Shown in pieces: positions 32,741-48,964 of a stretch of DNA of 64,000 bases. The notes below the pieces were generated by a model. That model was not told the origin of the DNA, made no database searches, and was given only the letters and a program-made list of their open reading frames with translations. Within the stretch, counting starts at the first letter, position 1, and every line of letters starts with the position of its first letter. The stretch comes from Prorocentrum cordatum. Taxonomy: Eukaryota > Sar > Dinophyceae > Prorocentrales > Prorocentraceae. Made by a program: the position numbers and the translations under genes. Location of the stretch: contig CAUYUJ010017837.1 of the NCBI GenBank assembly GCA_963575745.1, positions 799,190 to 863,189 of the forward strand, read 5' to 3'.

Positions 32741-32741
32741 T

Positions 32742-32746
32742 GGGGG
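32742..32746. other. Left target-site duplication of the copia element (GGGGG)
   Basis: GGGGG abuts the outer edge of the left LTR, and GGGGG also abuts the right LTR at 48831-48835. The right flank is a long G-rich tract, so a chance match is possible. Confidence 0.45.
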
Positions 32747-33010: not shown

Positions 33011-33131
33011 CGGGAGGGGAGGAGACGGAGAGCATAGCCGCGCAGCCGTTAGGCTCTACAAAGGCCGCGCGCACAACTGTTTGCAAGAAAGAAAACAGCG
33101 TGTACAGTCTGGCCTAACACCAGACTGTAAG

Positions 33132-33145
33132 GCGAGTTTCCTCGC
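33132..33145 (-). repeat. Hairpin GCGAG-GAAA-CTCGC (3' non-coding)
   Basis: Perfect 5-bp stem and GAAA loop on the coding strand, downstream of the last ORF. Confidence 0.85.
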
Positions 33146-33281
33146 AAAGCATTTCACGCAAATACAAGATAGCCCCTTCGAATGATGAAGGGCTATCGGC
33201 TCAGTTAGAGGTAAGCCAAACGGGCCATACCTCACCGAGCAAATATGTATTAAGGCAAAGAGCCTGAGTCATATAAAGCCG

Positions 33282-33295
33282 GCTCGTTGCCAGGC
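33282..33295 (-). repeat. Degenerate hairpin GCCTG-GCAA-CGAGC (3' non-coding)
   Basis: One mismatch and one wobble in the stem; GCAA loop. Probably a decayed copy. Confidence 0.45.
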
Positions 33296-33307
33296 GTGAA
33301 ATGTAAG

Positions 33308-33321
33308 GCTCGTTTCCGAGC
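33308..33321 (-). repeat. Hairpin GCTCG-GAAA-CGAGC (3' non-coding)
   Basis: Perfect 5-bp stem and GAAA loop, downstream of the last ORF. Confidence 0.85.
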
Positions 33322-33329
33322 AACTAGAA

Positions 33330-33352
33330 GGGCGCCTCTGTAGTAGGCGCCC
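33330..33352. repeat. Larger hairpin, 8-bp stem and 7-nt loop
   Basis: GGGCGCCT pairs with AGGCGCCC around CTGTAGT (plus strand). It lies 9 nt from the hairpin at 33308 in the 3' non-coding part of the copia element. It is not of the 14-nt type; a role in 3' end formation is only a guess. Confidence 0.6.
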
Positions 33353-33392
33353 ATGCTGGCAAATTGGACCGCGGAGGGGCAACAAGGACAGA

Positions 33393-34583
33393 CTAACATT
33401 GATTAGATTTGGGTTTGTTTCTGTCCTCGGGACCCCGAAATGGAACAAACTGCTTCACGTCATGCTTGAATGACTGAGTGCCTGACATCACTTCCAGAAG
33501 CAGCTCCCGATCGATGCTTCCCTTTGTATGCCCGTCTGCGGTCATATCCCTAGTATCACACCACTGCACGTTATGTACTATACCTATATCCATGAGCTCA
33601 CGTATCCAACTGATATGTCCAAGCAGAGTCCGTTCTGTCGGTATATTAAGATCCCTGCTTGATAATGATTTATAAACGGACTCGGCGTCTATGGTAAGAG
33701 AGACTTTGATAGCTAGGCCTCCAACTTCACGCATATCTAGTAGTTGTCGTGGAGTCAGAGCTCCTGCCTTAAGCTCGTGGAGAGTGATGAGCGTAGGGTA
33801 ACACTCATCGAGGTTATGCGCAGCTGCGAGTGCCTCCGCAGCATAGCTGGACCTCACCTGCAGTCGGTGTGATTTGCATAGTCCGTCACAGAGGTGAACG
33901 ACGGACTTGCCTTGAGGCGAGTTTCCTCGCCGTAGTACATTAGCCCCGCGTATGCCGTAGCCCTTGGTCTCATCATCCTCCTCCCCGGTAAGCTTCCGAT
34001 ACCCCGAATCGCTGTGGATGTCAACTTCATTCGTCGGCTTCATCCGAGGGAAGGTGATGCGTTTCGGGCTGCTGATCAGCTTTCGCGTCACAGCATTCAG
34101 ACGTCTGACTTGCAGATTGGTGGGCTCTTGAATTTTCTGGAGAGAGACCACGTATACCATGAGCCAGATTTGGGTAAGGAGGGCATAGGCGAGGGCTCCT
34201 CGCAAGCTGACGAACATGTCGGTAATGAGTTTCGTGGCTTTGGCATCGGCCGCCGCTCCTGTAAGTTCTGGGTGTGTGATAGGACGTAGTTGTTTGATAT
34301 ACTCGTCCTGATCCATGATCACATCCCCGTGATCATTCTTAGTGTAGCGAACGGCGCAGTTCGTATATGTGTGTTTATTGAGCTTGCATTTACCAAACAC
34401 CTTTTCGACACGCTGTACATAGTCGTCTATATTTTTCTCCAGGCCTGTCATGTTAATATCATCGACATGTTTTGCCGTTAGCAGATCTTGGCTGAATTCA
34501 AATTCAGGATCGTAGCTGGTCGGTGCAAGGCCTATAGCTCGTGTGGTCGTACGAAGTTTGAGAGAGAACGCTCTTGGAGCGTC
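33393..34583 (-). CDS. Copia RT C-terminal half plus RNase H
   Basis: The frame continues that of 34584-35228 after a lone TAG. It opens with DAPRAFSLKL, then LLTAKHVDDINMTGLEK holding the catalytic Asp-Asp pair of RT (about 34450-34490). RNase H follows: VDIHSDSGYRK (about 34010), SSYAAEALAA (about 33840), LTIDAESVYKSL (about 33680) and QWCDTRDMTADGHTKG (about 33545), the usual Ty1/copia signature. RNase H removes the RNA template during cDNA synthesis. The frame ends about 380 bp from the 3' LTR. The first ATG in the frame is at 34451, but the protein must start upstream. Confidence 0.9.
   Translation of the reverse strand, partial: DAPRAFSLKLRTTTRAIGLAPTSYDPEFEFSQDLLTAKHVDDINMTGLEKNIDDYVQRVEKVFGKCKLNKHTYTNCAVRYTKNDHGDVIMDQDEYIKQLRPITHPELTGAAADAKATKLITDMFVSLRGALAYALLTQIWLMVYVVSLQKIQEPTNLQVRRLNAVTRKLISSPKRITFPRMKPTNEVDIHSDSGYRKLTGEEDDETKGYGIRGANVLRRGNSPQGKSVVHLCDGLCKSHRLQVRSSYAAEALAAAHNLDECYPTLITLHELKAGALTPRQLLDMREVGGLAIKVSLTIDAESVYKSLSSRDLNIPTERTLLGHISWIRELMDIGIVHNVQWCDTRDMTADGHTKGSIDRELLLEVMSGTQSFKHDVKQFVPFRGPEDRNKPKSNQC
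33917..33930 (-). repeat. Hairpin GCGAG-GAAA-CTCGC, encodes RGNSP
   Basis: Perfect stem, in the preferred phase, inside the RNase H region. Confidence 0.9.
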
Positions 34584-35228
34584 CTATGTACCCGTTCCTG
34601 GTTTGAGGCATCTGAGGCAGTGTCGGCTTTCGTCATAAGATGAAAAGCCGGGTAGTGTACGAAGTACCTGGGCGCTTCCCGGTGGAAGAGTGAAGCAGGC
34701 CATGCGAGTTTCCTCGCCGGTGGCATGGGCAAGTTCCTCATAGGTCAAACCCTTGAGGAACGCCTTGTCGATATCCATGGATGCTAAAATCCACTCTGGA
34801 TGGCATGCCGCCTCACTTGCCAGGAGTCGTTGGGATTGCCTTCGGGCGGTTCCCGAGAATGTTTCCACATCAAAAGCCTCAGTATCCATAAATCCGCGAA
34901 GAACAAGTCTGAGACAAATGGTTTTAACGTTCTCGGTACCCACCTTTACAAACTTCCACTTGTATACATACCTGGATGTCATGATGTTGGAAGCTTTGGA
35001 TAAATCGTACATCTCAAAGCATCGGTTGTCAATCCAGATTTTGAGCTCAGTATACAAAGCTTCACTAACCTCCTTTGGATGTGCTGCTATGTCGGCTTTG
35101 GTCAGTAGATCATCTTCTTTAACGACCACAGCACGTTTAGCAGCAGAGGACACATAAACTCTCATCGTTGCGACCATATCGGTGTCGAGCTGTACAAGTT
35201 GGGTCTGATCCAACACTACTTTTGACAT
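34584..35228 (-). CDS. Copia reverse transcriptase N-terminal half
   Basis: About 214 codons. Visible RT features are FVKVGTENVKTICLRLVLRGF, the motif A-containing WILASMDIDKAFLKGLTYEE (about 34740-34800), FTLPPGSAQVLRTLPGF, and CLKPGTGT just before a lone TAG (34584-34586). The same frame continues on the other side with DAPRAFSLKL, so the TAG sits inside the polymerase domain. The upstream join to 35216-36268 needs a frame change. RT copies element RNA into cDNA inside the Gag particle. Confidence 0.9.
   Translation of the reverse strand: MSKVVLDQTQLVQLDTDMVATMRVYVSSAAKRAVVVKEDDLLTKADIAAHPKEVSEALYTELKIWIDNRCFEMYDLSKASNIMTSRYVYKWKFVKVGTENVKTICLRLVLRGFMDTEAFDVETFSGTARRQSQRLLASEAACHPEWILASMDIDKAFLKGLTYEELAHATGEETRMACFTLPPGSAQVLRTLPGFSSYDESRHCLRCLKPGTGT
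34704..34717 (-). repeat. Hairpin GCGAG-GAAA-CTCGC, off-phase in RT
   Basis: Perfect stem; read as G-E-E-T-R, so the nucleotide hairpin is present without the Gly-Asn coding phase. Confidence 0.8.
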
Positions 35229-36268
35229 TTCTGATGTAAAACATAACTCAACGTAAGGACCATGTTCATCACTGTCAAGAGTGTAGCTCTCGTCAGGTGT
35301 GGTTGAGCAGAGAGAGAGACTAGACAGGACTCTCGTGGTTCAGGCTCGTCTCCGAGCGTGTCCGATGATACGATATCTTCTTCGTCCACAGATGCTGAAA
35401 CCAAAACACATTGGTCGGGCAGCATGGTTGTTGGGACGCAGTAGAGATAATCGTCGGTAGTCGTCGTAGGATGAAGGTCCATACGTAGCTCGTCGTACCA
35501 CTCTTCCAGCATCATAGCTTCGATATTATGTTCCTCATTTTCCTCATAGATTGTCGACAGACGACCTTCACTCGGCGATGAAGCACCTGGGGTGTCTGGA
35601 GGAGGCCTGTTTCCAGGCGAATCGTGTTCTCCAGACGTATTGCTTGAGTGCTGATAGTTTGCCAAGTCGTCGTGAAATCCTAAGGAAGGGACACGTGAAA
35701 TCAAGCATTGAATAAGTCTGGAATGAGTGCTACCAGTGATCTGAGAAATGTTTAGGCCGGTGCCCACACACTCGTAGTAGTGGAAAGCCGGGCTGATATC
35801 GTTGTCATAGTGGATCAGCGTAGACCCGGTGGCGTACTTTACTGCAGGAAGGCTTGACACACTTTTGGCCAATCTAACTGCTACTACATGTTCTACTCGG
35901 AAGTAGTTCCGCACGAGATACTGTAGTGCTAAATGTACGCGCGGGTGAAACTTGCTGTCGTCTGAAAGATTGAGGTTTCCCTTGTAATCGGGGATATAGC
36001 CGAAAATTTTGGCAGGTTTCCCTGCGCCGAGGTGTGCCACATATGTAAGGACGGCTTGCGTGGCCATATTATCCATGCCAAGTTCTCGTGTGAGGAGACA
36101 TTCAATGTACAGTGTGTGACGAGCATCAGGATACATCACAACTACCTCACGAGATCCAGCCTTGACAACAATATGTCCTCTTTCAGGCACATTGCGGATC
36201 ACCGGGAATGGGCCATTCCAGCCTCCACGATCGTCCTTAGTGGCAGTGGGTCGGTGGTAATCGACCAA
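35216..36268 (-). CDS. Copia integrase C-terminal region and linker to RT
   Basis: About 350 codons. It begins VDYHRPTATKDDRGGWNGPF followed by VIRNVPERGHIVVK, the small beta-rich C-terminal DNA-binding part of integrase, which the upstream integrase frame reaches after a frameshift near 36310. The remainder is an unrecognised, partly acidic linker with SPSEGRLSTIYEENEEHN. It ends overlapping the RT start region by 13 nt in another frame. Confidence 0.7.
   Translation of the reverse strand: MVDYHRPTATKDDRGGWNGPFPVIRNVPERGHIVVKAGSREVVVMYPDARHTLYIECLLTRELGMDNMATQAVLTYVAHLGAGKPAKIFGYIPDYKGNLNLSDDSKFHPRVHLALQYLVRNYFRVEHVVAVRLAKSVSSLPAVKYATGSTLIHYDNDISPAFHYYECVGTGLNISQITGSTHSRLIQCLISRVPSLGFHDDLANYQHSSNTSGEHDSPGNRPPPDTPGASSPSEGRLSTIYEENEEHNIEAMMLEEWYDELRMDLHPTTTTDDYLYCVPTTMLPDQCVLVSASVDEEDIVSSDTLGDEPEPRESCLVSLSAQPHLTRATLLTVMNMVLTLSYVLHQKCQK
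35344..35357 (-). repeat. Hairpin GCTCG-GAGA-CGAGC, encodes LGDEP
   Basis: Perfect stem, GAGA loop; preferred phase with Asp in place of Asn. Confidence 0.85.
35605..35618 (-). repeat. Hairpin GCCTG-GAAA-CAGGC, encodes PGNRP
   Basis: Perfect stem, preferred phase. Confidence 0.9.
36012..36025 (-). repeat. Hairpin GCAGG-GAAA-CCTGC, off-phase
   Basis: Perfect stem; read as A-G-K-P-A. Confidence 0.8.
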
Positions 36269-37113
36269 ATCCCCTGCAGAGTAAAGGCGAGCACCATCAG
36301 GAGTCGCTTTAGCCTAAGAGCCCCATTTGTCTTGGCCACAGCAGTGGCCTGAGTTATGGCTTCTAGGCTGACTTCCCTCACACGACGTTCTCGTTCGTGT
36401 CCTGAAGTCTCGGGTCCCTTGGAAAAGTCAAGGGTGTCGAGATCAGGGAGAAAGGAGGGCTGGCGTCCTGTGTGTGCTTGGCATGGCGATACTCCGTTAT
36501 AAAACGTAAAAGCATTAGTAACGAAGATGCCTTCCGCAAATACTCTAGTGAATACAACAGGGATGTTGTGTCTATTCAGTTCTTCCTCAATCATGTGGAG
36601 GACGCCTCTGAGAATGCCGTTTCGTGACTCAATTGAAGTCGCGTGTTGGCCAGGTGCTCGGATACGAAGTTCTGTGCCCTTATTGGCCATCATGGCTTTA
36701 GCGGCATCATTGTTCAGGGCGCCTTCTCCGTCTGAGTATAAGACTTTGAAGGGTCCGTGATAGGCAATCCAGCAGTAGTGGTAGGCGTCGAGGATAGCGT
36801 CACGTTCTCTGTCGGAAATTTCTAGGCCTGCTGCCAGGCGAATACAACGATCCATAATGTGAAATATGGTCCGTTTCTTGTAGAACATGAGGTCCATTTC
36901 GCCTTCGTCGAGCCAGTTACCGGGAAGGCTCACCGAGGGTAATGTTGAGTTTCCTGGACGTTCCCATGCTCTGCATTCCCGACAGGTGTCGCAAACTTCC
37001 TTGATCATGTTCAGTCGAACGTTATCCAGCCCCACTTTGTCGAGGATTAGCCTCATCTTAGGTTCCTTCGCATGATGCCATCGCAGATGCAGTTTTCGGA
37101 GTTCCTTTTTCAC
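36199..37113 (-). CDS. Copia integrase (zinc finger and catalytic core)
   Basis: The N-terminal HHCC finger is LHLRWHHAKEP ... EVCDTCREC (about 36970-37090). The catalytic D,D,E core is visible as EGEMDLMFYKKR (about 36890), VLYSDGEGALNN (about 36735) and ATSIESRNGIL (about 36620), with ordinary retroviral-type spacing. Integrase inserts the cDNA into chromosomal DNA. The frame runs in from 37141-37713 after a TAA (37141-37143), and the true C-terminal part is in another frame from about 36310. Confidence 0.92.
   Translation of the reverse strand: MKKELRKLHLRWHHAKEPKMRLILDKVGLDNVRLNMIKEVCDTCRECRAWERPGNSTLPSVSLPGNWLDEGEMDLMFYKKRTIFHIMDRCIRLAAGLEISDRERDAILDAYHYCWIAYHGPFKVLYSDGEGALNNDAAKAMMANKGTELRIRAPGQHATSIESRNGILRGVLHMIEEELNRHNIPVVFTRVFAEGIFVTNAFTFYNGVSPCQAHTGRQPSFLPDLDTLDFSKGPETSGHERERRVREVSLEAITQATAVAKTNGALRLKRLLMVLAFTLQGIWSITTDPLPLRTIVEAGMAHSR
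36826..36839 (-). repeat. Hairpin GCCTG-GCAG-CAGGC, off-phase in integrase
   Basis: Perfect stem, but the loop is GCAG instead of GNRA and it sits in a conserved integrase segment. It may be a coincidence or a mutated copy. Confidence 0.45.
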
Positions 37114-37140
37114 GACATGAGGTTCGTGACTACGGAGACT

Positions 37141-37713
37141 TTATAGACTGTGTTGGATGTCGAATCTCGTCCAGTCGGGTAGTCGTGGAGCCCCAGAGCC
37201 GGTCGAGGCAAGAGGGTTCCTTGTAGCTCTCCGTAGTTGGTCCCCTGCATTGACTGCATCTGGAGGTGGTGGTACGCCTTGTAGGCGGCCGCGACGGGCC
37301 GCTACCTGTGGCGCTTCGCTGGAGGACGCGGAAGGCGTGTTTCCACGCTCGGGGGCGTCTCGTAGCATGTCGTAACTGCTGGCACCAGATGTCGGATCGA
37401 CGTTACCGAAGGATCGTGGTCGCGGTGGCCTGGCGTGTGCGCCTTGGCGGCCACCTGAAGCTGAAGCTTGGCCCTCACCAGGTTTAGGTAAGGGTTTCCA
37501 CCAAGCTGGCACGGTTTTGCCTTCGGGGTCGTGGTCGTCTGGAAGTTTAAATGGTTCAGCAAAACGACATTTACCAGGTTCGGTATCGAGGTGGTTCTTA
37601 ACACCCTTGCTTCTCGTAAGATCCCTCTGGCATGCGGGACATGGCCAATATACAGAGATGGAATCATGATATTTACACTGCGTAGGGTCTCTGTTATGGC
37701 TAGGACGGTCCTT
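37141..37713 (-). CDS. Cys/His-containing segment before copia integrase
   Basis: Open frame between a TGA (37714-37716) and a TAA (37141-37143), in the same frame as the ORFs on both sides. It reads RDPTQCKYHDSISVYWPCPAC followed by KNHLDTEPGKCRFAEPF, a Cys/His arrangement suggesting zinc binding, then a Pro/Gly-rich linker. It is best seen as part of one polyprotein broken by isolated stops. Confidence 0.6.
   Translation of the reverse strand, partial: KDRPSHNRDPTQCKYHDSISVYWPCPACQRDLTRSKGVKNHLDTEPGKCRFAEPFKLPDDHDPEGKTVPAWWKPLPKPGEGQASASGGRQGAHARPPRPRSFGNVDPTSGASSYDMLRDAPERGNTPSASSSEAPQVAARRGRLQGVPPPPDAVNAGDQLRRATRNPLASTGSGAPRLPDWTRFDIQHSL
37335..37348 (-). repeat. Hairpin GCGTG-GAAA-CACGC, encodes RGNTP
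   Basis: Perfect stem, preferred phase. Confidence 0.9.
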
Positions 37714-38154
37714 TCAGACGTTGTCGATGCATGCCGGGCAAGTGGCCACCTTTGGGATGATACGGTCACCGATGCGTCTCATACCTTCGCCTGGTTCAGC
37801 TTGATCGGGAAGGTCTGCAGGGTAAGCATGTGCGGTACTTATAGGCGCGTTTCCGCGCGTAGTATCAATGGCTTTCGCCAGATAGACGGCTTCCACGAAG
37901 GCAGACTGCAGTCGTCGAGTGTATTTTTGTGCCAGTGAAAGCTCTTTATTGCACGGTTGTGCGTGCACATGCTGACCGTTGCATTTGAGTCGCTCAAAGG
38001 GTTTAAGAATTGTCTCGTCGTTGCTGGTGATATTTGTCGGCTTCTTAATATAGTCACCAGCCGTATCTTTGAGTCCCGTAGCACATTGATCAATGCGTAC
38101 GGTTGTAATGTGTGGTCGGTTGGCAAGTTCCTTCCATGGGGAAATATCATCCAC
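37714..38154 (-). CDS. End of the methyltransferase-like module of the copia polyprotein
   Basis: The frame is open from 38247, just after a TAA, and reads DALRWFIREQPTGTWVDDIS, then HITTVRIDQCATGL and KPTNITSNDE ... KCNGQHVHAQPC. The E-Q-P ... D-Q-C ... K-P-T ... C.G.H.H series matches that at 21100-21320 in the YR element and 58534-58770 in the LINE. I read it as the C-terminal half of a SAM-methyltransferase-like domain; enzymatic activity is unproven. Confidence 0.65.
   Translation of the reverse strand: MDDISPWKELANRPHITTVRIDQCATGLKDTAGDYIKKPTNITSNDETILKPFERLKCNGQHVHAQPCNKELSLAQKYTRRLQSAFVEAVYLAKAIDTTRGNAPISTAHAYPADLPDQAEPGEGMRRIGDRIIPKVATCPACIDNV
37845..37858 (-). repeat. Hairpin GCGCG-GAAA-CGCGC, encodes RGNAP
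   Basis: Perfect stem, preferred phase. Confidence 0.9.
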
Positions 38155-38247
38155 CCATGTTCCTGTAGGTTGTTCGCGTATAAACCACCTCAGAGCGTCA
38201 TCTTGGGTTACAGCATTTTTACCACAATAAGTTATGTGTGGTAAATC

Positions 38248-39858
38248 TTATTTGTGGTGCTGTTCCCAAGTGTTGTAATTGACTTTGTAGTTGTAGTAGG
38301 ATGGTGGTCCTGTGGTGCGGCAACTGGGTTGTAGCATGGCAACTCGTACGTAGCATATAGCGAAGTAATGGTCTATAACCCGCTGCACCGAGGGGTCTCC
38401 CAGGTCGACATATGTAGTCTTGTCTAGGTTGCCTCCTGAGGAGAGTCCCCTTGAGAAGGCAAGCTCTGAGATACCACCTTCACCGCCACAAAGCTCCAAC
38501 ATATCCACGCAGTTGTTATGACCATAGCATAGTGTAGCAGCTATGCTGTATATGTTAGCGTGTGTGTCGGGCATAGATGTGGGGAGGGTAAGGAACAGGT
38601 CATCGTCCTCATCGGAGCTTATCAGCTCAATAGGGACGTCAGTACTCCAGGTTGCCATAAGATCCTGTCCGAGTCCTGACAAGTCGTCGCCGCAATCATC
38701 GTTTCCGTCTTCAACGTGCTTTTTAATGCGGCGAGGCTTGATGCCTGCTTCCTTTTCGGCTTTGAGCCTTTCCTTCTGCTTGATACGCGATTCTGTGGGT
38801 AAAACTTGCTCATCTTGTTCGCCGGTCTGTGTGCCCATTGTCGTGGTTGAGTGGGTACATGCGTCAATCGCCAGAGTCGGGAGGGGGAGAGAACAGTCAT
38901 CTATGATGACGCGTCGAGGTTTCTGTGGTGATTGAGTAGGCTCGTTTCCGAGCAAGACCGGTTCCTCGGGTTGCCAATACAACCGAGTGCTGATGTTGGC
39001 AACCCCTGCAGGTAGTGGTGCATGCCAATCATACCCTGTTGGTTGATCGGTAACTGAGATATCCTGAATAACCGCATTGGTATCCAGGTTAATCGTTACA
39101 CGTCGGATAACATCAGACCATTTCGGTCCTCCCTTGTTGGTCGTCACATAGTGATGGATGTTGTGGTCCGTACGTGTATAAGTGTTTAAATATACAGGCA
39201 CGTTTCCGTGCGTGGTGGTGCTCCCCAGGATGTTGTCGTTCAGATGACGGATGAGTGTAGTGCGTGTCTGAGCTCGCCATTCAGCATGCCGTACTGTATG
39301 ACCGTACCAATCCAACACATGTTGTGGTATTGCCTGTTTGCATGTACATGCCCACAGCTTCGAGCTAATCGGTATTGATGACGCTACCTGCATATAAGTA
39401 CCACTCGGTGCACTGTCTTGCATATTGAACCGAATACCGAAATGACACAGACGCATCCGTATCACTGACAACTTAAGATCTTCCAGGGTATCACGTACTG
39501 GAGATAACTTCCAAACATATCCTGGGGGACCAAATATAATGATTTTCATACGGAGTTTCTTGGCTTTTATCAACAGGTTCTGGATACGTGACCAATGTGG
39601 GGCCACTCTCTTTCCTGGAGCTCGTACATACCAGTCACCCGGGGTACTAATCCATATGAGAGTGTAATCTCCACTAATCACCGCACCCAGGTAATCTGTG
39701 CCCACGCTTGTCATAAGCTCATTGTGGGAAATACGATCACAGATATAACCTCGGGCGCGGAGGTCGGCACAAGCCTCTCTCGTATCTTCAATGACAAAAG
39801 CCCTCTTACTAAGGCAGGTTACCCCGCTGTCCTTGTTACCCCCCGGCTTTTCGGCCAA
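38248..39858 (-). CDS. Methyltransferase-like region of the copia polyprotein
   Basis: About 536 codons. The first part has a Rossmann-like appearance (DYTLIWISTPGDWYVRAPGK, then KKLRMKIIIFGPPGYVWKL), and a second starts VDMLELCGGEGGISELAF with a Gly-rich loop typical of SAM binding, followed by VAMLQPSCRTTGPPSYYN. The middle is a charged linker. Cytosine methyltransferases have been reported inside dinoflagellate retrotransposons, but this domain lacks a clear PCQ-type catalytic motif, so I only call it methyltransferase-like. The frame continues upstream across a TGA (39898) and downstream across a TAA (38248). Confidence 0.6.
   Translation of the reverse strand: MAEKPGGNKDSGVTCLSKRAFVIEDTREACADLRARGYICDRISHNELMTSVGTDYLGAVISGDYTLIWISTPGDWYVRAPGKRVAPHWSRIQNLLIKAKKLRMKIIIFGPPGYVWKLSPVRDTLEDLKLSVIRMRLCHFGIRFNMQDSAPSGTYMQVASSIPISSKLWACTCKQAIPQHVLDWYGHTVRHAEWRAQTRTTLIRHLNDNILGSTTTHGNVPVYLNTYTRTDHNIHHYVTTNKGGPKWSDVIRRVTINLDTNAVIQDISVTDQPTGYDWHAPLPAGVANISTRLYWQPEEPVLLGNEPTQSPQKPRRVIIDDCSLPLPTLAIDACTHSTTTMGTQTGEQDEQVLPTESRIKQKERLKAEKEAGIKPRRIKKHVEDGNDDCGDDLSGLGQDLMATWSTDVPIELISSDEDDDLFLTLPTSMPDTHANIYSIAATLCYGHNNCVDMLELCGGEGGISELAFSRGLSSGGNLDKTTYVDLGDPSVQRVIDHYFAICYVRVAMLQPSCRTTGPPSYYNYKVNYNTWEQHHK
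38940..38953 (-). repeat. Hairpin GCTCG-GAAA-CGAGC, encodes LGNEP
   Basis: Perfect stem, preferred phase. Confidence 0.9.
39198..39211 (-). repeat. Hairpin GCACG-GAAA-CGTGC, encodes HGNVP
   Basis: Perfect stem, preferred phase. Confidence 0.9.
39814..39827 (-). repeat. Hairpin GCGGG-GTAA-CCTGC (one G-U), off-phase
   Basis: Stem held by one wobble pair; GTAA loop. Confidence 0.7.
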
Positions 39859-39897
39859 CAGGCAAGACGACGAGGGGGCGACGTCGCCCTGCCATCT

Positions 39898-42755: not shown

Positions 42756-45700
42756 GCCCCTCGGTGTGACGGTGTGTGCGTGCTCTGCGAGGGGCTTCCA
42801 TGCATCTGCTCAAATCGAGCAGGCTCTCCAAAGATGCGGCCGAACGTCTGCGGGTCTCCCTGCGGCTCAGGCATCTCAGCTCTGAGTCCGTTTATAGGCA
42901 GGTTTCCCTGCATGGCCTGACGATTTCGCGTCGCCATGGCGGACATTGCTCCCTGGCCTGCAGCCCAGGGGTCCTGCTGATATAACCTATCCGCCAGTTG
43001 CTCCACCTGTTCAGGGTTCAGAGCGGCCGCTATCTGGTCCAAGTCCGAGGTGCTGATGGCCTGCCAAGACACGGCGCTAGGCCCTTGGCTTGGGGCGCGG
43101 CTTGGAGCCGCGCTCCCGGCCTCACTCTCGGTGATCATGAAGATCTGGTGGACCTCAGGCTGGTTTCCCAGCTTGGCGGGACTGTAGTGGTCCCCAACCT
43201 CCCTGTGGAGGTAGACCATGGGAGGGTCGACGCCCTCTTGGTCTCGGGACCATTGGTATTTGACGCTGGCACTGCCAACGTCAGCCCACCTGTCAGGGGC
43301 AGACATCACGGAAATGGGGACTCGCGCCCGGCGATTCCCCAGATGCTCTGGATTACGCCAGTGCTTTCCCGTGGCAAGGTCCTCTATATGAGAAATGTAG
43401 TACGGTTCAATGATACCGTTGTCTCCCTCGGACAAAAGGACTCCGTTATCAGACCAACAAAACTTCATACCGTCTTGCATGGCCTTGTGCCAATCCACGA
43501 AGATGATGATGTCTGAGTCCGGGTCCCACCCACTGTTCACGGCACGACGGCGAACCGTCGGCACGAAGTGGATGTGCGACCGGCCTGTCCCCTGTTTCTT
43601 CGTGTTGTGCTCGGGTCTACAGGACAAGCCGTGCCACATAATGCCTTCGAAGGCATGCCACCGAGTGCCATGCATGGCGACTTCGGGGTACGGGGCCGGT
43701 CTCCCGGCAGGTTGGTCGCACAGTACAATATAGTTGTACAGCGACCATGGAGCTTTCAATGTCCATGAATGCCCCTGAGAGGCGCGGATGAAGATATCGG
43801 GCTCACCGGAGTCCCGCATCAACACCTTGAACTGAAGGCGCTGTGTTTCTTCTCCGTCTGGTTCACGGACATGAACAACTTCCATCATGATGGCGGCCAG
43901 TTGGTCAACCGTGCGAGCATATAGGTTCGCATTGATGACTTTGGCCTCGTCATGTCTGGGATTATATCCGTCGTGTCTCGATTTTCCTGTGTTCCACGGA
44001 TAATCATTCACGAGTTCCACGAGGTTGACCCAGCCATCATGATCATCGAAGGAAGCCAGGTCCCACACAGGATTGTGTGGTTTGTCTGGCGCATGTCTGC
44101 ATATCCTGCTGAGAGCTTTACTCAGCTGCTTGAGAGTGTGATTGGATGTAGGAAGGATGTTAGCTCGCCTGCATTTCTTCATGAATGCCTCATCCACCGA
44201 GCGTATCGGTGGGAGCTTCCGCAGAGCAAGTCTATCCCTGATCACACTCGGAGCCCCACTGGTGAAGGACGTGCCCCCTGGGTGGTGCAGCTGATCCACG
44301 GGCGGGTTTCCCCGCATAGGAGCCTCTGTTGCTGAAGAGGCTGCGGCTCCTGAAGAGGAGGTAGCTGCAGCGGCAGCGCCTGGCGGGTTTCCCCGCGGTG
44401 ATCCGCGACTGGCGCTGCCCCTAATCGTTGGCACCCAGGTACCCCTAGACATGGCACCTTCGTCGGACCTTTTGGAACGAGCCGCCACAGGCGAGGCTGG
44501 CGCAGGGGCATACCCGGTGCGCTCGAAAGCTGCCGCCCTTTTAGCAATGGAGCTGCTACGACTGGGCTGGCGTCTCCGTTCCTCCACAGGGTCCTGAGGT
44601 TGCTGCTTGGGCTCAGACGCTTGTGCAGGAGTTGCGCCACTCGGCGGTCTCGGAGTTGCAGAGCGAGGCGCCTCCATCTGCACATCTGGCCCAGGATCCT
44701 GAGAGCGCGCCTTCGGTTTCACCTCCGAAGACGACTTCGGTGCCGGGGTTTCACTCTTAGCCTTCGAAAGTAGTGGGAGCGGGGGTTTCCTAGCCCCCTT
44801 CATGTAAATCTTGTTGGAATCCTCCAACATCTTGCGAGTTGCCTCGCGTGCGCGTTCGTCTGCTATCCGCATGCGTTCCTCGTCCTCCGCCACACGTTGG
44901 GCCTTCTGTTCGTCCTTGGATGTCAGTTCTGGTTGTTGGGACTGACTAGAAACGCCGGGCGAGTTTCCTCGCATACCAGGAAGACTAAAGAGCGCGTCTT
45001 TCTCTTCCTGGGTCATGGGCACCAGTCCCCCCCTTGGAACCGGGGTAGACTTCTCCTCTTCCTCTTTCGGATCCAAGTGGCCCAGGATCCCGAGACGACG
45101 ATTCACTTCTGCGATCTCGTCCTGTGTCATCGGGATAAGTGGCGGATGTCCCTCTTTATGAAGGGTTTTGCCCCTGTCGGGGCTCAGACCTTCATTGTTG
45201 CCAACGGGGCATCCCGGCCTGTGGTTCTGGAACCTCTCGGAACAAGGTCCGCAAGCTGCTTGAGGCCTATACTGCTTGCGAGCCGCGATGATGTTTCGCA
45301 GCTGGGTCCGCACTTCTTCAATTTCAGGGCGGCGGATGTTTGTTGCAATCTGATAGCCTCCGCGGATGGCCTTGCCCTCAGCGTCCCTATAGGCAGGGTT
45401 GCCCTTGCCGAAGGCCGAGTGTTCCCCTTTTCGGCGTCTTGGGTCATTATACGGAAGCAGCTGGCCACCTCGCCTGAGAGCGTGTTCTTTCGGGCCAGCC
45501 TGCCTCCACTCACGAGGAAGCCGAGCCTGTGGGCGTGGCTCTCCTCTGACGCGCGTATGGGAACGGGACCTACCAGCGTTCTCATCAGAAGAGGCCGCCG
45601 AAGCAGCCTGAGTGGTAGCCGGCGGAGGCGCCTGCGGAGGCTCCTGTGCGATCCCAGGTGGATCGGCCAATAGAGGCAGGTTTCCCTGCTGGCTGGAGCT

Positions 45701-46750
45701 CGGCTCAAATGGCGCTTGTGCCGATGGTGATGGTGCTTCAGGCTCGTCAGGATCAAAGTCAACCTCTTCCTCACCATTGACTTCCATCATGAGGACTGGC
45801 CCGCAACCATCGCCTTCTTCTTCTTCTGATGTAGAACTACCAATGCTGATGGCCATTGGCGCAGCCGGGACAGGCAGGTTTCCCTGCATAGCCGGCATCT
45901 GTGCGTCGCTCGGCTGTCCCGGGGTAGACGGCACGGTTGTCGGTTCAGGCTCGTTGCCGAGCACAGGCTGCCCAGCAATGTTGCGCATGGCCGCATGGTT
46001 TGGCCACAGTCCCACCGCCTGGAGACCCCATCCTGGCGGAGGAAGATCATGACCGCGCATGGCGATAGCCATTTCCAGAGCATTGCGCCATCTACCGCGG
46101 GAGTATATCAGGTGTCTCTGCACGTCCTCAGGATGCACGCTGTCAATGAGAGTCAGAGCTGCCAACAGCAACTCCGAGCTACCGCAGGCGTCGGTATCCT
46201 GCAGCATCATGATGTCAGCTTCGATGTTCTCTTGACTCTCGGGATAAGCGATGATAAGTATCTCATGCATCCTCATGAGGGTTTGCAGGAGAGTACGTGG
46301 TCCGTATTCGCCTAGAGCAAGCGAACCAGGGGGTACAAATGGGATCTCTGGTTCACCTGCAATGAAAGCTTGAACGAACGCCTGAGACTCCAGATCTAGT
46401 AGGTCTTCATCAGTTTGGGGATAGTCTCCCATCAAGGTAGGCCTGTTTCCAGGCGGGAGTTCAGGTGGAGGTTGGAGGTTGCGTTCAACCTCGGAAGGCG
46501 AGGCCTCCAAAGTGGTGTCCTCGTCACTGTTTTCGTAGGCCATGATGTTGCCTGGGTTCCCGAACATCCAGTCGAAGAAAGAAAGAGGCTGGTTTCCCAG
46601 CGTACAGTGATCCACGGGAGTGAGCTCGTTGTTTCCAATAACGAACCGGCGGACGTACTCGAGGTAGTACGCGTACAGTCCGTGACCATACGCCTCGAGC
46701 TCGTCGACGTTGTCCATGCAACTGACCCAAGTGTAAAATATCTGCTCCAT
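42752..46750 (-). CDS. Copia polyprotein segment with RNA 2'-phosphotransferase (Tpt1/KptA) domain
   Basis: About 1332 codons. Most of the N-terminal two thirds is disordered, Pro/Gln/Ser-rich, with a possible Cys/His site (ACGPCSERFQNHRPGC). Residues about 863-1125 (43375-44165) match Tpt1/KptA: LKQLSKALSRICRHAPD, IFIRASQGHSWTL, AMHGTRWHAFEGIMWHGLSC, GRSHIHFVP and IIIFVDWHKAMQDGMKF with SDNGVLL. The Arg-His pair of RHAP, the Arg of IRASQGHS and the Arg of RSHIH correspond to the four catalytic residues of the family. Tpt1 uses NAD to remove a 2'-phosphate from RNA, classically the splice junction of tRNAs. The frame is the same as Gag and is open upstream to the TAG at 46826. I list the first ATG (46750); a 15-nt spliced-leader match lies 44 nt ahead of it. 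Confidence 0.88.
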   Translation of the reverse strand: MEQIFYTWVSCMDNVDELEAYGHGLYAYYLEYVRRFVIGNNELTPVDHCTLGNQPLSFFDWMFGNPGNIMAYENSDEDTTLEASPSEVERNLQPPPELPPGNRPTLMGDYPQTDEDLLDLESQAFVQAFIAGEPEIPFVPPGSLALGEYGPRTLLQTLMRMHEILIIAYPESQENIEADIMMLQDTDACGSSELLLAALTLIDSVHPEDVQRHLIYSRGRWRNALEMAIAMRGHDLPPPGWGLQAVGLWPNHAAMRNIAGQPVLGNEPEPTTVPSTPGQPSDAQMPAMQGNLPVPAAPMAISIGSSTSEEEEGDGCGPVLMMEVNGEEEVDFDPDEPEAPSPSAQAPFEPSSSQQGNLPLLADPPGIAQEPPQAPPPATTQAASAASSDENAGRSRSHTRVRGEPRPQARLPREWRQAGPKEHALRRGGQLLPYNDPRRRKGEHSAFGKGNPAYRDAEGKAIRGGYQIATNIRRPEIEEVRTQLRNIIAARKQYRPQAACGPCSERFQNHRPGCPVGNNEGLSPDRGKTLHKEGHPPLIPMTQDEIAEVNRRLGILGHLDPKEEEEKSTPVPRGGLVPMTQEEKDALFSLPGMRGNSPGVSSQSQQPELTSKDEQKAQRVAEDEERMRIADERAREATRKMLEDSNKIYMKGARKPPLPLLSKAKSETPAPKSSSEVKPKARSQDPGPDVQMEAPRSATPRPPSGATPAQASEPKQQPQDPVEERRRQPSRSSSIAKRAAAFERTGYAPAPASPVAARSKRSDEGAMSRGTWVPTIRGSASRGSPRGNPPGAAAAATSSSGAAASSATEAPMRGNPPVDQLHHPGGTSFTSGAPSVIRDRLALRKLPPIRSVDEAFMKKCRRANILPTSNHTLKQLSKALSRICRHAPDKPHNPVWDLASFDDHDGWVNLVELVNDYPWNTGKSRHDGYNPRHDEAKVINANLYARTVDQLAAIMMEVVHVREPDGEETQRLQFKVLMRDSGEPDIFIRASQGHSWTLKAPWSLYNYIVLCDQPAGRPAPYPEVAMHGTRWHAFEGIMWHGLSCRPEHNTKKQGTGRSHIHFVPTVRRRAVNSGWDPDSDIIIFVDWHKAMQDGMKFCWSDNGVLLSEGDNGIIEPYYISHIEDLATGKHWRNPEHLGNRRARVPISVMSAPDRWADVGSASVKYQWSRDQEGVDPPMVYLHREVGDHYSPAKLGNQPEVHQIFMITESEAGSAAPSRAPSQGPSAVSWQAISTSDLDQIAAALNPEQVEQLADRLYQQDPWAAGQGAMSAMATRNRQAMQGNLPINGLRAEMPEPQGDPQTFGRIFGEPARFEQMHGSPSQSTHTPSHRGA
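42850..42863 (-). repeat. Near-perfect hairpin GCAGG-GAGA-CCCGC, encodes QGDPQ
   Basis: One A-C mismatch; GAGA loop; preferred phase with Asp. Probably a mutated copy. Confidence 0.55.
42898..42911 (-). repeat. Hairpin GCAGG-GAAA-CCTGC, encodes QGNLP
   Basis: Perfect stem, preferred phase. Confidence 0.92.
43159..43172 (-). repeat. Hairpin GCTGG-GAAA-CCAGC, encodes LGNQP
   Basis: Perfect stem, preferred phase. Confidence 0.92.
43695..43708 (-). repeat. Hairpin GCCGG-GAGA-CCGGC, off-phase, inside the Tpt1 domain
   Basis: Perfect stem, GAGA loop; read as A-G-R-P-A between the QGHS and HGT motifs. Confidence 0.75.
44302..44315 (-). repeat. Hairpin GCGGG-GAAA-CCCGC, encodes RGNPP
   Basis: Perfect stem, preferred phase. 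Confidence 0.92.
44393..44406 (-). repeat. Hairpin GCGGG-GAAA-CCCGC, encodes RGNPP
   Basis: Perfect stem, preferred phase. Confidence 0.92.
44834..44847 (-). repeat. Hairpin GCGAG-GCAA-CTCGC, off-phase
   Basis: Perfect stem, GCAA loop; read as R-E-A-T-R. Confidence 0.8.
44959..44972 (-). repeat. Hairpin GCGAG-GAAA-CTCGC, encodes RGNSP
   Basis: Perfect stem, preferred phase. Confidence 0.92.
45170..45183 (-). repeat. Hairpin GCCCC-GACA-GGGGC, off-phase
   Basis: Perfect stem, GACA loop (not strict GNRA). Confidence 0.6.
45393..45408 (-). repeat. Degenerate hairpin around GCAA, encodes KGNPA
   Basis: Six-pair stem with one mismatch around a GCAA loop; keeps Gly-Asn in the preferred phase. 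Confidence 0.4.
45676..45689 (-). repeat. Hairpin GCAGG-GAAA-CCTGC, encodes QGNLP
   Basis: Perfect stem, preferred phase. Confidence 0.92.
45874..45887 (-). repeat. Hairpin GCAGG-GAAA-CCTGC, encodes QGNLP
   Basis: Perfect stem, preferred phase. Confidence 0.92.
45949..45962 (-). repeat. Hairpin GCTCG-GCAA-CGAGC, encodes LGNEP
   Basis: Perfect stem, GCAA loop, preferred phase. Confidence 0.92.
46441..46454 (-). repeat. Hairpin GCCTG-GAAA-CAGGC, encodes PGNRP
   Basis: Perfect stem, preferred phase. Confidence 0.92.
46588..46601 (-). repeat. Hairpin GCTGG-GAAA-CCAGC, encodes LGNQP
   Basis: Perfect stem, preferred phase. Confidence 0.92.
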
Positions 46751-46793
46751 GGCTTCAAAATCCTGGAGGCTCAGATATTCGATGAATGGTTCA

Positions 46794-46808
46794 CTTGAGC
46801 CAAAATGG
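46794..46808 (-). other. 15-nt match to the 3' end of the dinoflagellate spliced leader
   Basis: The coding strand reads CCATTTTGGCTCAAG, identical to the last 15 nt of the conserved dinoflagellate spliced leader as I know it; the bases further 5' do not match. It lies 44 nt upstream of the ATG at 46750, within a frame that is open through it. It is probably a relic of a trans-spliced, reverse-transcribed mRNA. Confidence 0.65.
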
Positions 46809-46825
46809 ACTTCTGTCGACCTGCC

Positions 46826-47302
46826 CTATCCATTTCCCTTCGCTGGACAATCTCGCACAAGATGGTCGGTACTGTCGCACTCATGGCACTTAAGAACCTG
46901 GCCGTCTCTACCTCGCGGGTTTCCCCGCCTACCCTTGCCTTTTCCTGAGGTCTCTCTACGGCCCTTGCCACGGCCCTTTCCCCCAAAGAATATCTCATCA
47001 TGTTGTTCATCTGAGAGCCTCTGGAGAAATGCCGTGATGCCTCGTCCGTTCAACCTCCGACGACCTCGTTTACCTTTACCTTTTCCCTTAAAGCTCCTCC
47101 GTATCCTCCTCCTAACACGACGCACTGGTTTTCGCGTGAACCTCCCCCACCTCCGTTTGGCCTGTTGTAATAACCAGAACAAATGTTCAGCACGCTGATT
47201 GTCATTATCCATATTCATAATATCTGACCAATCTAAAGCTTCAACACCGTCTGATGATATAGTATGTGTGCCGGTGCCGGAGTCGAAATCCTCGTCTCCC
47301 AA
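46826..47302 (-). CDS. Gag nucleocapsid-like segment with CCHC zinc knuckle
   Basis: About 158 codons in the same frame as Gag upstream and the Tpt1 ORF downstream; separated only by a TAA (47432) and a TAG (46826). It is strongly basic (FKGKGKGKRGRRRLNGRG, GGKGRGKGRRETSGKGKG) and ends with a zinc knuckle CHECDSTDHLVRDC that fits C-x2-C-x4-H-x4-C. Such segments bind and package the element RNA. The listed start is the first ATG; the frame itself is open from 47431. Confidence 0.85.
   Translation of the reverse strand: MGDEDFDSGTGTHTISSDGVEALDWSDIMNMDNDNQRAEHLFWLLQQAKRRWGRFTRKPVRRVRRRIRRSFKGKGKGKRGRRRLNGRGITAFLQRLSDEQHDEIFFGGKGRGKGRRETSGKGKGRRGNPRGRDGQVLKCHECDSTDHLVRDCPAKGNG
46916..46928 (-). 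repeat. Variant hairpin GCGGG-GAA-CCCGC (triloop), encodes RGNPR
   Basis: The loop is one base shorter than in other copies, which shifts the phase after Gly-Asn-Pro. Confidence 0.65.
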
Positions 47303-47380
47303 GTAGGTGGATACACCGTCGGTTAGGGGATTTGATTCACCCCATAAGGAACGGTGTGGTTGTGGTTCTCTAGAAGGAGG

Positions 47381-47394
47381 GCTGGTTGCCCAGC
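47381..47394 (-). repeat. Hairpin GCTGG-GCAA-CCAGC, between Gag segments
   Basis: Perfect stem, GCAA loop; read as W-A-T-S if the TAA at 47432 is passed, so off-phase. Confidence 0.8.
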
Positions 47395-47431
47395 TCGGTT
47401 GTGATCGATCTCCTGCTAGTAGAGCAGTGGA

Positions 47432-48772
47432 TTATCCAGGATCATCGGCCCATATGCTTGAGGGCCCGTTCCCAGGCTGGGCTTCAGTGGTCAAGGTAGT
47501 GTAGAAATTTCCACTACCAGATCCCCTTCCCCTTCCAAACGCAGATCCTATATTGCCAGGAGACCGTTCAGATAGGTGACCTATCGAACGCATCCTCTCC
47601 AGCAACTCATCATACTGTTGTTGTGTTCGGGGCATTTGGTGATTGAGTGGCTGTAAGAGTTGCATGGCTCGCTGGTTGCCGACGCCTAAGGCGCGGAACA
47701 GGATCGTGGTTAGTAGTTGGAAGTTGGGAAGGTCAAATCCCACCGACTGTGCCTCAAGTCGGGCCATTTCGAATCGGGCAAGGGTGACATCGATTCGTTC
47801 CCCGTGAGGCACGTGGAAGTCGATGAGTTGTGTGCCGGAAGTGAGCTGTCGCTCATCTTCCAGGCGTTCGAACTTCATGCTTAGGAGGAACATGATGTAG
47901 GTCGCTGGGTCGGTGTGGACCCCATCGATGTCAGCACCATAATTTATAATGTCAGGCGGTACCCTCATGGCGAGTGTCCTCGCTAGGCCACCCAGGCCGC
48001 GTTGTATGGCGGCCGCTTGGGCCTGCGGCGTCATGCGCCCGCTTGTGACGTTGAGCCATGCGTTGACCTCATAAACGTACTCGCGGAAAGGTACGTTGCC
48101 TTGAGGGTCCCAATATGGGCCATGTGTTTGCCCATCGGTGCTGTTTTCTCCACGACGCATGCGTCCGATTGCTGCCCCCAGCGCGAGCCATATGATAGCG
48201 AAGATAACCAGCCCGAGGCTGTGTAGATAGGGGTGGTTATTAGGCGCGTTGCCGCGCTGGGGCAGCGCCTTGTCGAGTCTTCGAGGCGCTCTATCTGGCG
48301 GATCTCTCCGCCCATGCTTCAGGTATTGCGCTTTTGGCTCGTTGCCGAGCGGTTGGTGGTAGCGCAATGATGAAGCGTATATGGTACCAATGTCGTTGTC
48401 TAGACGTCGTACCTCTCGTGGCGCTTCTTGCTCTTGGATAGATCCTCGTAAACGTACTGGGAGTGATAGCGCAGGGCGGTAGGTGTTCACGAAGATCGCG
48501 CCGAAGAGTATGAGGCTAAGAAGAGCAAGAGCTGACCACACGAGAGTGCGGCCAGCTCCGCTACCAAGTCGAAAGTGAGCCTGGTAACTCAAATAGCATC
48601 CGATTCCGTAGACATCGGATGGCAAATAGCGTCCGGTATCGTACTGACGTGGTTCAGTAAGAGGAATGGACGGATAAGATAGGATAAGATCGATGTATCG
48701 GTCTTTCCAGCACATAGCGAACACTCGCGGTGTCCGGGCAAATAGGGCGCGCGTGCCTTGAGCCAAAGGCAA
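47432..48772 (-). CDS. Gag-like protein with two predicted membrane segments
   Basis: About 446 codons. The start-like codon (48772) is inside the 5' LTR and the frame crosses the primer-binding site. Two hydrophobic segments follow, LVWSALALLSLILFGAIFV (about 48490-48550) and LGLVIFAIIWLALGAAIG (about 48170-48225). The globular part (about 47550-48110) reads FREYVYEVNAWLNVTSGRM, QRGLGGLARTLA and TYIMFLLSMKFERLEDE, in the style of copia/dinoflagellate Gag capsid domains. The C-terminus is Gly/Ser/Arg-rich (GRGRGSGSGN). Gag forms the particle around the RNA. Membrane segments are unusual for Ty1/copia Gag. The true start could be elsewhere, because no other ATG precedes the capsid part. Confidence 0.72.
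   Translation of the reverse strand: MPLAQGTRALFARTPRVFAMCWKDRYIDLILSYPSIPLTEPRQYDTGRYLPSDVYGIGCYLSYQAHFRLGSGAGRTLVWSALALLSLILFGAIFVNTYRPALSLPVRLRGSIQEQEAPREVRRLDNDIGTIYASSLRYHQPLGNEPKAQYLKHGRRDPPDRAPRRLDKALPQRGNAPNNHPYLHSLGLVIFAIIWLALGAAIGRMRRGENSTDGQTHGPYWDPQGNVPFREYVYEVNAWLNVTSGRMTPQAQAAAIQRGLGGLARTLAMRVPPDIINYGADIDGVHTDPATYIMFLLSMKFERLEDERQLTSGTQLIDFHVPHGERIDVTLARFEMARLEAQSVGFDLPNFQLLTTILFRALGVGNQRAMQLLQPLNHQMPRTQQQYDELLERMRSIGHLSERSPGNIGSAFGRGRGSGSGNFYTTLTTEAQPGNGPSSIWADDPG
47464..47477 (-). repeat. Hairpin GCCTG-GGAA-CGGGC (one U-G), encodes PGNGP
   Basis: Wobble-containing stem, GGAA loop, preferred phase. Confidence 0.75.
47970..47983 (-). repeat. Hairpin GCGAG-GACA-CTCGC, off-phase in Gag
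   Basis: Perfect stem, GACA loop (not strict GNRA). Confidence 0.6.
48244..48257 (-). repeat. Hairpin GCGCG-GCAA-CGCGC, encodes RGNAP
   Basis: Perfect stem, GCAA loop, preferred phase; just before the second membrane segment. Confidence 0.9.
48337..48350 (-). repeat. Hairpin GCTCG-GCAA-CGAGC, encodes LGNEP
   Basis: Perfect stem, GCAA loop, preferred phase; the most upstream copy in the element. Confidence 0.9.
48555..48566 (-). promoter_or_regulatory. tRNA primer-binding site
   Basis: Directly inside the 5' LTR the coding strand reads TGGTAGCGGAGC. TGG complements a tRNA CCA end, and the word resembles the initiator-Met primer sites of eukaryotic copia elements (TGGTA.C.GAG). The perfect abutment supports the LTR boundary at 48567. 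Confidence 0.8.
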
Positions 48773-48830
48773 CGGCGCGCGAGCTATGCTCCCGATACTA
48801 TAACATCTCCCAAAGAGCTACCCTTAAAGT
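48567..48830 (-). repeat. 5' LTR of the copia element
   Basis: 264 bp with no difference seen from 32747-33010. On the coding strand it starts ACTTTAAGGG and ends CTTTCGACT, followed by the primer-binding site. It also encodes the first codons of the Gag frame. Confidence 0.9.
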
Positions 48831-48964
48831 GGGGGTGGGGTGGGGGGGGGGGGGAACCAACTGCTGGTGCATGCGATGGGTGTGATGATGACGATGCTAG
48901 TGGCGCGCCCTCGAATGAGCGACGACGCGTGATGACGCCAATGCGTTGCGGTGCAATGTCTCTA
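48831..48964. other. Right target duplication candidate (48831-48835) and G-rich tract
   Basis: GGGGG abuts the LTR and is followed by GTGGGGTGGGG and a long G run (about 48842-48853). I see no gene. Confidence 0.45.

Follow-up and report, generated by a model that had tools for sequence, protein, structure and literature searches.

A copia-type long terminal repeat (LTR) retroelement of the dinoflagellate Prorocentrum cordatum carries a dense array of small RNA hairpins whose structure has been kept by selection. The element (32747..48839, minus strand, 16.1 kb) lies in a 64,000-nt stretch of contig CAUYUJ010017837.1 (assembly GCA_963575745.1, positions 799,190 to 863,189 of the forward strand), hereafter the window. 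Its array includes 39 perfect 5-bp hairpins with a GC base and a GNRA loop between 33132 and 48350, all on the minus strand, which is the sense strand of the element. The comparison of element copies, together with two shuffle controls, supports the conclusion that what selection maintains is the hairpin structure, and not the precise sequence or the peptide that it encodes, and it is very probable that this selection acts at the RNA level. The repeated module consists of a 5-bp stem with a fixed GC base, a closing pair that is mostly G-C, a GNRA loop and an unpaired 3′ C, present about 40 times in each full-length sense RNA. With respect to function, the balance stands about even for the proposal that the hairpins are putative dispersed, family-specific sites for the recognition and packaging of genomic RNA by Gag.

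A sequence-only reading of the window had described about 46 such hairpins, with varying stems matched by their opposite arms. The matching arms were borne out and the array was confirmed, its number being corrected to 42: in addition to the 39 GNRA hairpins, it holds two with a GACA loop (GCGAG-GACA-CTCGC, 47970..47983, and GCCCC-GACA-GGGGC, 45170..45183) and one with a GCAG loop (GCCTG-GCAG-CAGGC, 36826..36839), besides several one-mismatch forms. The 39 perfect hairpins have the loops GAAA (27), GCAA (8), GAGA (3) and GTAA (1), so that the loops originally listed, with GAAA as the commonest, were recovered except for GGAA, which is absent from the perfect GC-based hairpins of the window. 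The core motif is GCNNG-GNRA-CNNGC-C, with a G-C closing pair in most hairpins; just 5 of 44 GC-based stems have loops other than GNRA, and position +15, immediately after the hairpin, is C in 36/39 and is followed by G in 0/39. The antisense strand of the element has no GC-based G..A hairpin, and the LTRs are equally free of hairpins, the array starting 489 nt from the 5′ end and stopping 385 nt from the 3′ end, so that most of the 15.5 kb of internal sequence is covered. The hairpins are spaced weakly more evenly than expected by chance (coefficient of variation of 0.75 vs 0.96 for random placement, with 4.8% of simulations as low), and 20 of the 38 spacings are divisible by three. All three reading phases are used, and most hairpins in the large open reading frame (ORF) share one phase and encode xGNyP. 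Within 32600-49000, Rfam gave no match at the gathering score. The pattern scan and the copy alignment together identified GCGCG-GCAA-CGCGC (48244..48257), GCTGG-GCAA-CCAGC (47381..47394), GCCTG-GAAA-CAGGC (46441..46454), GCAGG-GAAA-CCTGC (45874..45887 and 40257..40270), GCGAG-GCAA-CTCGC (44834..44847), GCGGG-GAAA-CCCGC (44383..44396, 44302..44315 and 40881..40894), GCGGG-GCAA-CCCGC (40346..40359), GCGGA-GCAA-TCCGC (39992..40005), GCGTG-GAAA-CACGC (37335..37348) and GCTCG-GAGA-CGAGC (35344..35357); the remaining hairpins are described below with the comparisons that concern them.

Chance does not account for the array, as had been estimated from the sequence: in 200 dinucleotide shuffles of the region, GC-based GNRA hairpins appeared with a mean of 0.055 and a maximum of 1, vs the 39 observed. 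Moreover, 200 synonymous-codon shuffles of the ORFs, in which the proteins were kept, produced a mean of 2.0 and a maximum of 6, vs 35 observed. The array is restricted to the element, as had been proposed, with the reservation that one GC-based GNRA hairpin per strand occurs elsewhere in the window, outside 33132-48350. Stems with other 4-nt loops numbered 27 in the region, compared with an average of 15 (sd 3.9) stems with any 4-nt loop in the shuffles, which is a modest and unexplained excess. In a folding model, the minimum pair probability exceeded 0.5 in 34/39 hairpins with 50-nt flanks and in 33/39 with 150-nt flanks.

The conservation of the array was assessed in four other full copies of the family, which are 77-95% identical to the window copy over long stretches. 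The hairpin sites are common to all copies, and a perfect 5-bp GNRA hairpin is found in 5/5 copies at 23 of 39 sites, such as GCTCG-GCAA-CGAGC at 48337..48350. Across the four copies, identity to the window was 96.9% in the 15-nt hairpin units (n=2324) and 85.8% in the flanks (n=8947), the conservation scores being possibly inflated because the sites were picked as perfect in the window copy. The 780 base-pair cells of these copies comprised 752 unchanged, 8 double Watson-Crick changes, 3 G-U pairs, 12 single breaks and 5 gaps. The double Watson-Crick changes correspond to four events, at sites named here by the upper coordinate of each hairpin (41415, for example, standing for 41402..41415): 48311 (GCGGA-GAGA-TCCGC, 48298..48311), with GCGGG/CCCGC in three copies; 46601 (GCTGG-GAAA-CCAGC, 46588..46601), with GCTCG/CGAGC in copy C2; 44972 (GCGAG-GAAA-CTCGC, 44959..44972), with GCGGG/CCCGC in two copies; and 41496 (GCAGG-GAAA-CCTGC, 41483..41496), again with GCGGG/CCCGC in two copies. 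Similarly, loop substitutions that remain GNRA were observed at 45962 (GCTCG-GCAA-CGAGC, 45949..45962; GTAA in two copies), 45689 (GCAGG-GAAA-CCTGC, 45676..45689), 40927 (GCGGG-GTAA-CCCGC, 40914..40927; GAAA or GCAA in the other copies), 37858 (GCGCG-GAAA-CGCGC, 37845..37858; GAGA in two copies) and 35618 (GCCTG-GAAA-CAGGC, 35605..35618). The hairpin GCGAG-GAAA-CTCGC at 33132..33145 is interrupted in copy C15, and the sole absent hairpin is 41415 (GCAGG-GAAA-CCTGC, 41402..41415) in copy C2, where it was deleted along with adjoining bases. Sites shared by five copies, compensatory and GNRA-keeping changes and the restriction to the sense strand sustain the suggestion, also made from the sequence, of an RNA element with retained structure.

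A sister element in the same genome (searched as 4.13 Gb in 21,875 contigs) repeats this design with another loop. It extends from L058:1328 to L020:4736, over about 16.4 kb, with LTRs that are 99% identical; its RNase H region shares 73% identical residues with that of the window element, and Tpt1 and RING finger domains are present in both. The sister array follows the same stem plan, with 45 G..A hairpins on the sense strand and 3 on the antisense strand, and synonymous shuffles gave a mean of 0.99 and a maximum of 5, vs 39 hairpins observed in its ORFs. Among 40 sister hairpins of L051 and L020, three of which fall in one Ala-rich tract (L020:209-258) and may be by-products, the loops were GCCA in 20, GTCA in 8, GACA in 4 and GNRA in 7. 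The third loop base was a purine in 39/41 window hairpins and a pyrimidine in 33/40 sister hairpins (Fisher p = 2e-13), showing that each of the two families has its own loop version, GNRA in the window family and GNCA in the sister. Conservation of C at +15 does not extend to the sister (10/40), whose peptides at the hairpins are mostly AGPPA/AGSPA, not xGNyP. The sister also pairs, with different stems, at 36025 (GCAGG-GAAA-CCTGC, 36012..36025; sister GCGGG-GAAA-CCCGC), 33930 (GCGAG-GAAA-CTCGC, 33917..33930; sister GCGTG-GCCA-CACGC), 33321 (GCTCG-GAAA-CGAGC, 33308..33321; sister GCGAG-GCTA-CTCGC) and 46928 (GCGGG-GAAA-CCCGC, 46915..46928; sister AGGG-GCAA-CCCT, 4 bp only). Short tandem series of sister hairpins were observed at L051:910-983 and 6253-6338, with 30-nt and 24-nt spacing, and such series are a possible route of array growth.

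Protein alignments placed nine window hairpins where the sister has none. Three of these sites have no gap in or beside the hairpin: 39211 (GCACG-GAAA-CGTGC, 39198..39211), 38953 (GCTCG-GAAA-CGAGC, 38940..38953) and 34717 (GCGAG-GAAA-CTCGC, 34704..34717, in the reverse transcriptase region, where the sister is unpaired without any indel). The other six have gaps of 1-4 residues, for which a small length change and realignment are indistinguishable: 43708 (GCCGG-GAGA-CCGGC, 43695..43708, within the Tpt1 domain), 43172 (GCTGG-GAAA-CCAGC, 43159..43172), 42600 (GCAGG-GAAA-CCTGC, 42587..42600), 42398 (GCTCG-GCAA-CGAGC, 42385..42398), 41988 (GCGAG-GAAA-CTCGC, 41975..41988) and 35618. Since a 5-residue gap, equivalent to a 15-nt insertion, was found at none of the nine sites, the gain and loss of hairpins seem to occur largely in situ. 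Moreover, as the sister repeats the design with another loop and mostly elsewhere, the number and type of hairpins seem to outweigh their place.

The distribution of the trait was surveyed in the same genome and among outside relatives. Six other copia loci, taken as one 5-kb piece each from the list of RVT_2 matches (150 scored of 8,854 candidates), had no GC-based G..A sense hairpin, and one of them (L057) had a single antisense GNRA hairpin. Protein identity is 22-30% among these loci and 20-25% between them and the sister, so that they are distinct families, and because all six are distant from the hairpin families they do not locate the nearest border of the trait. In the first 100 of 24,693 genome matches to the hairpin pattern, counted by eye, 84 fell in six element clusters, 81 of them paired, and 16 were isolated, with one paired, which is the chance rate. 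The search of the genome with the reverse transcriptase gave 8,877 first-look candidates, 150 of which were scored. With the relative P0009 as query, the 72 candidates scored out of 12,732 were all of a single kind, with an identity of about 68%, and included the sister copy of L020; no third family was among them. DNA of relatives was sought in viral_contigs and genome_contigs, where no locus was found.

At the protein level, the RNase H region has 117 relatives (from the sources ena, jgi, ncbi, lgn and eukprot), in which codon-level traces of the same pairing can be perceived indirectly. In the phase encoding xGNyP, the y codon is the reverse complement of the x codon. Considering xGNy with x in R/H/Q/P/L, 17/35 occurrences in outside relatives were pairing-compatible, vs 8.65 after shuffling y (P 0.0006, not an exact probability, as the tested sequences are related and the comparison covers proteins only). 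Three control dipeptides gave no excess (16/106 vs 18.7, 0/19 vs 2.5 and 8/152 vs 18.3). At the homologue of 33930, where GN is present, the y residue is S in P0007, A in P0008 and T in P0048 and P0102, with R retained as x, which agrees with the pairing prediction; many relatives, P0001 and P0002 among them, lack GN at the corresponding position. Further loop dialects perhaps exist in marine relatives. As separate observations, HGNV, RGNA, GGNT or PGNR occur in the relatives P0028, P0030, P0009 and P0099 and may mark further arrays, and P0007, from the EukProt dataset of a green alga (Pyramimonas sp.), is 91% identical to the RNase H region at 67% query coverage, which points to dinoflagellate contamination or transfer.

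These features suggest that an element-encoded protein, most likely Gag, would bind the hairpins as dispersed family-specific sites, and that this binding would lead to the recognition, compaction and packaging of the unspliced genomic RNA before reverse transcription. The many identical sites would provide high avidity and would distinguish the RNA of the family from host mRNA and from that of related families. The best-fitting reader is Gag-like: only the unspliced genomic RNA contains the complete array, a large number of sites gives avidity, and selective packaging would need a family-specific loop; an array spanning the internal region without hairpins in the LTRs is also what a genomic-RNA signal would be expected to show. 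The proposed reader would be the CCHC zinc knuckle of Gag (46838..46891, minus strand), a weak Pfam match below the curated cut-off. In a broader and more tentative reading, to which we give somewhat less than even weight, the array would be the RNA address of a clade of dinoflagellate copia elements, with about 40 hairpins per genome, one loop dialect per family and a putative co-evolving reader protein, the individual hairpins appearing and disappearing at their sites without loss of dialect or density.

Several observations weigh against packaging by Gag and, in part, against structural selection itself. The compensatory events are few, four across five full copies, and none was detected in 33 rows of the window family at seven 3′ sites (rows C56 and L037 being one and the same copy), where 208 of 228 readable cells were unchanged and the others showed single changes, loop changes or changes at +15. 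Individual copies have broken loops, for example at 46928 in C15, 42911 (GCAGG-GAAA-CCTGC, 42898..42911) in C2, 42398 in C56 and 41496 in C2, and the GNRA loop at 40173 (GCCAG-GAAA-CTGGC, 40160..40173) belongs to the window copy alone, the other four having GACA. In the folding model, the hairpins receive no help from their own flanks, random element context performing equally (median 0.98 vs 0.96). Furthermore, the two families have zinc knuckles of similar appearance (window CHECDSTDHLVRDC, sister CHTCGSTEHLRDQC), so that the loop switch is unexplained by any obvious knuckle change. The array has been seen in two families only, the nearest families without it being distant, and known packaging signals are more degenerate than the near-perfect copies of this element.

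The main rival to packaging is a different role in RNA fate, in which the hairpins would mark the RNA for export from the nucleus or retention in it, for avoidance of splicing or of spliced-leader (SL) trans-splicing, or for control of the translation of the giant ORFs, and would be read by a protein of the host or by a further protein of the element (Tpt1, RING or another domain). The sense-only array on internal RNA and a density kept despite site turnover would suit it equally, as would Tpt1 and RING, two unusual domains for the handling of RNA and protein that are found in the sister too; a loop that differs by family would be unexpected for a host reader, and this role is regarded as unlikely, while deserving serious consideration. 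Far less probable is an action during cDNA synthesis, by strand transfer, pausing or recombination of co-packaged RNAs. Hairpins along the whole template and on one strand are compatible with it, and the GNRA/GNCA rule, the G..A loop ends and the C at +15 (36/39) would rather suggest recognition by a protein or an RNA fold, since pausing should need stem strength only; the sister does not keep that C (10/40). About as improbable would be the use of the hairpins as sites of RNA cleavage and re-ligation, with the Tpt1 of the element stripping the 2′-phosphate from the joint to let reverse transcription proceed. A Tpt1-like domain is encoded by both families that have hairpins, segments of that of the window match solved Tpt1, and PMC6333775 describes Tpt1 as removing the 2′-PO4 left behind by tRNA ligase. 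The sequences show no sign of cutting, arms and loop being kept in the genomic copies. Hairpins of the 5-bp GNRA type are not known to be splicing substrates.

The remaining explanations are all very improbable. Template-switch correction of near-palindromes during reverse transcription could make and keep perfect stems; it would account for perfect arms and paired changes, and the excess of non-GNRA 4-nt-loop stems (27 vs a shuffle mean of 15 for all) could be counted in its favor, but it predicts neither a family-specific loop, nor a fixed GC base, nor the absence of hairpins in six copia families, and non-GNRA loops occur in merely 5/44 GC-based stems. Even less weight is given to small mobile insertions, a hairpin mini-element family scattered in the element, which had been the other possibility raised from the sequence. 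The uniformity of the units, the 20/38 spacings that are multiples of three and the 1-4-residue gaps at six of nine aligned sister sites are in line with insertion, which is disfavored by the sites shared in five copies, by the ungapped sites 34717, 39211 and 38953, by the lack of any 5-residue gap at the nine and by isolated genome matches that are paired at chance level (1/16). When the copies were aligned for presence or absence at fixed sites, as had been proposed, no clean insertion was shown anywhere, and the lone loss (41415 in C2) took neighboring bases with it. The least probable explanation is that a repeated protein motif or codon bias generates the hairpins: most hairpins of the large ORF do share one phase and encode xGNyP, but synonymous shuffles yielded 2.0 hairpins vs 35, all three phases are used, the sister peptides are different, and x and y covary as reverse-complement codons.

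Returning to packaging by Gag, the array can be compared with known systems. MLV and HIV-1 (murine leukemia and human immunodeficiency viruses) have Gag-binding stem-loops on their genomic RNA, and such retroviral stem-loops cluster near the 5′ end. The array resembles them as a set of structures on the genomic RNA of a reverse-transcribing element, with a putative Gag reader, and differs in extending over most of the internal 15.5 kb. The purine loop of mouse mammary tumor virus is likewise presented in PMC8096270 as a Gag-binding stem-loop of a retrovirus. In RNA viruses, multiple dispersed stem-loops with a common loop motif serve as packaging signals, as outlined in PMC6281560, and assembly mediated by packaging signals is reported for RNA viruses and hepatitis B virus in PMC7612645 and PMC4751978. 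The array shares with these signals its many stem-loops across the genomic RNA, its common loop motif and a structure kept by selection; it differs by its roughly 40 near-perfect copies of a 14-15 nt module, its location in an LTR retrotransposon and its family-specific loop, with protein binding being putative. By analogy, the array may work like dispersed packaging signals, a likeness that implies no claim of membership. In the lambda N/boxB system, the hairpin recognized by a short arginine-rich peptide likewise combines a 5-bp stem on a GC base with a GNRA-like loop; this system differs by its pentaloop, its one or two sites per operon and its role in transcription antitermination, no homology being claimed. 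Similarly, DNA uptake sequences are many dispersed copies of a short self-mark with species dialects, and differ in being a DNA sequence motif, without covarying RNA structure, in another process. In the titles and abstract openings of the open-licence literature, no description of such an array in a retrotransposon was found, which is not proof of absence. The array is regarded as a new form of dispersed RNA recognition signals, with a fair chance that it constitutes a separate class. Because signals for packaging tend to be degenerate, the way in which a retroelement or RNA virus selects its own genome, and how this diverges between relatives, is difficult to observe; if the array is such a signal, each RNA repeats it some 40 times, possibly thousands of element copies carry it, and a single genome contains no fewer than two dialects of it. 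If the proposal is true, the co-evolution of an RNA motif and its reader becomes directly testable in a natural dispersed-signal system outside viruses. In addition, the array shows that about 15 kb of mostly protein-coding DNA can bear a dense second layer of structural constraint.

The carrier element has a 273-nt 5′ LTR (48567..48839) and a 273-nt 3′ LTR (32747..33019), 99% identical, a reverse transcriptase (RVT_2) segment at 34734..35024 and a RING finger at 41646..41807, all on the minus strand, and its layout is identical in other copies. The RVT_2 match has an E of 1.5e-7, vs 1.1e-10 in the sister. The near-identical LTR pair, the copia-type reverse transcriptase and the weakly matching zinc knuckle agree with Ty1/copia elements, from which it departs by its giant ORFs with Tpt1 and RING and by the array, missing from the 5 kb covered in each of the six control loci. 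Integrase (rve) gave no match at E <= 0.01 in nine window ORFs and three sister ORFs, while two ordinary copia loci did match; the region 36199-37140 resembles integrase, judged by eye only. The reading frames of the window copy are broken. In many scored copies of the same genome, the ORF bearing the reverse transcriptase is open over 2167 or 2199 aa and that bearing Tpt1 over 2926-2941 aa, two Tpt1 matches lying in a frame of 4482 aa. A single stop separates two long ORFs that share one frame in L051, an arrangement reminiscent of gag-pol readthrough.

The Tpt1/KptA RNA 2′-phosphotransferase domain (43424..44131, minus strand; PF01885, E 8e-24; PDB relatives 7yw3 and 7yw2) is located within the polyprotein, as in the sister (L051 residues 787-1018). 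Its segments CRH, IRASQGHS and GRSHIHF align with solved Tpt1, CRH only in a sub-threshold alignment. The Tpt1 search of the genome gave 2877 first-look candidates, 150 of which were scored, and the protein search with the Tpt1 region returned nothing scoring at E <= 0.001. On the sense strand of the element, 15 nt at 46794-46808 (minus strand) equal the 3′ end of the dinoflagellate SL; they differ among copies and may be chance or relic. The 21-nt SL itself occurs 14,218 times in the genome, vs none for the reversed control. Outside the element, long open frames of 1594, 1153 and 355 aa lie on the plus strand at 17727-26753.

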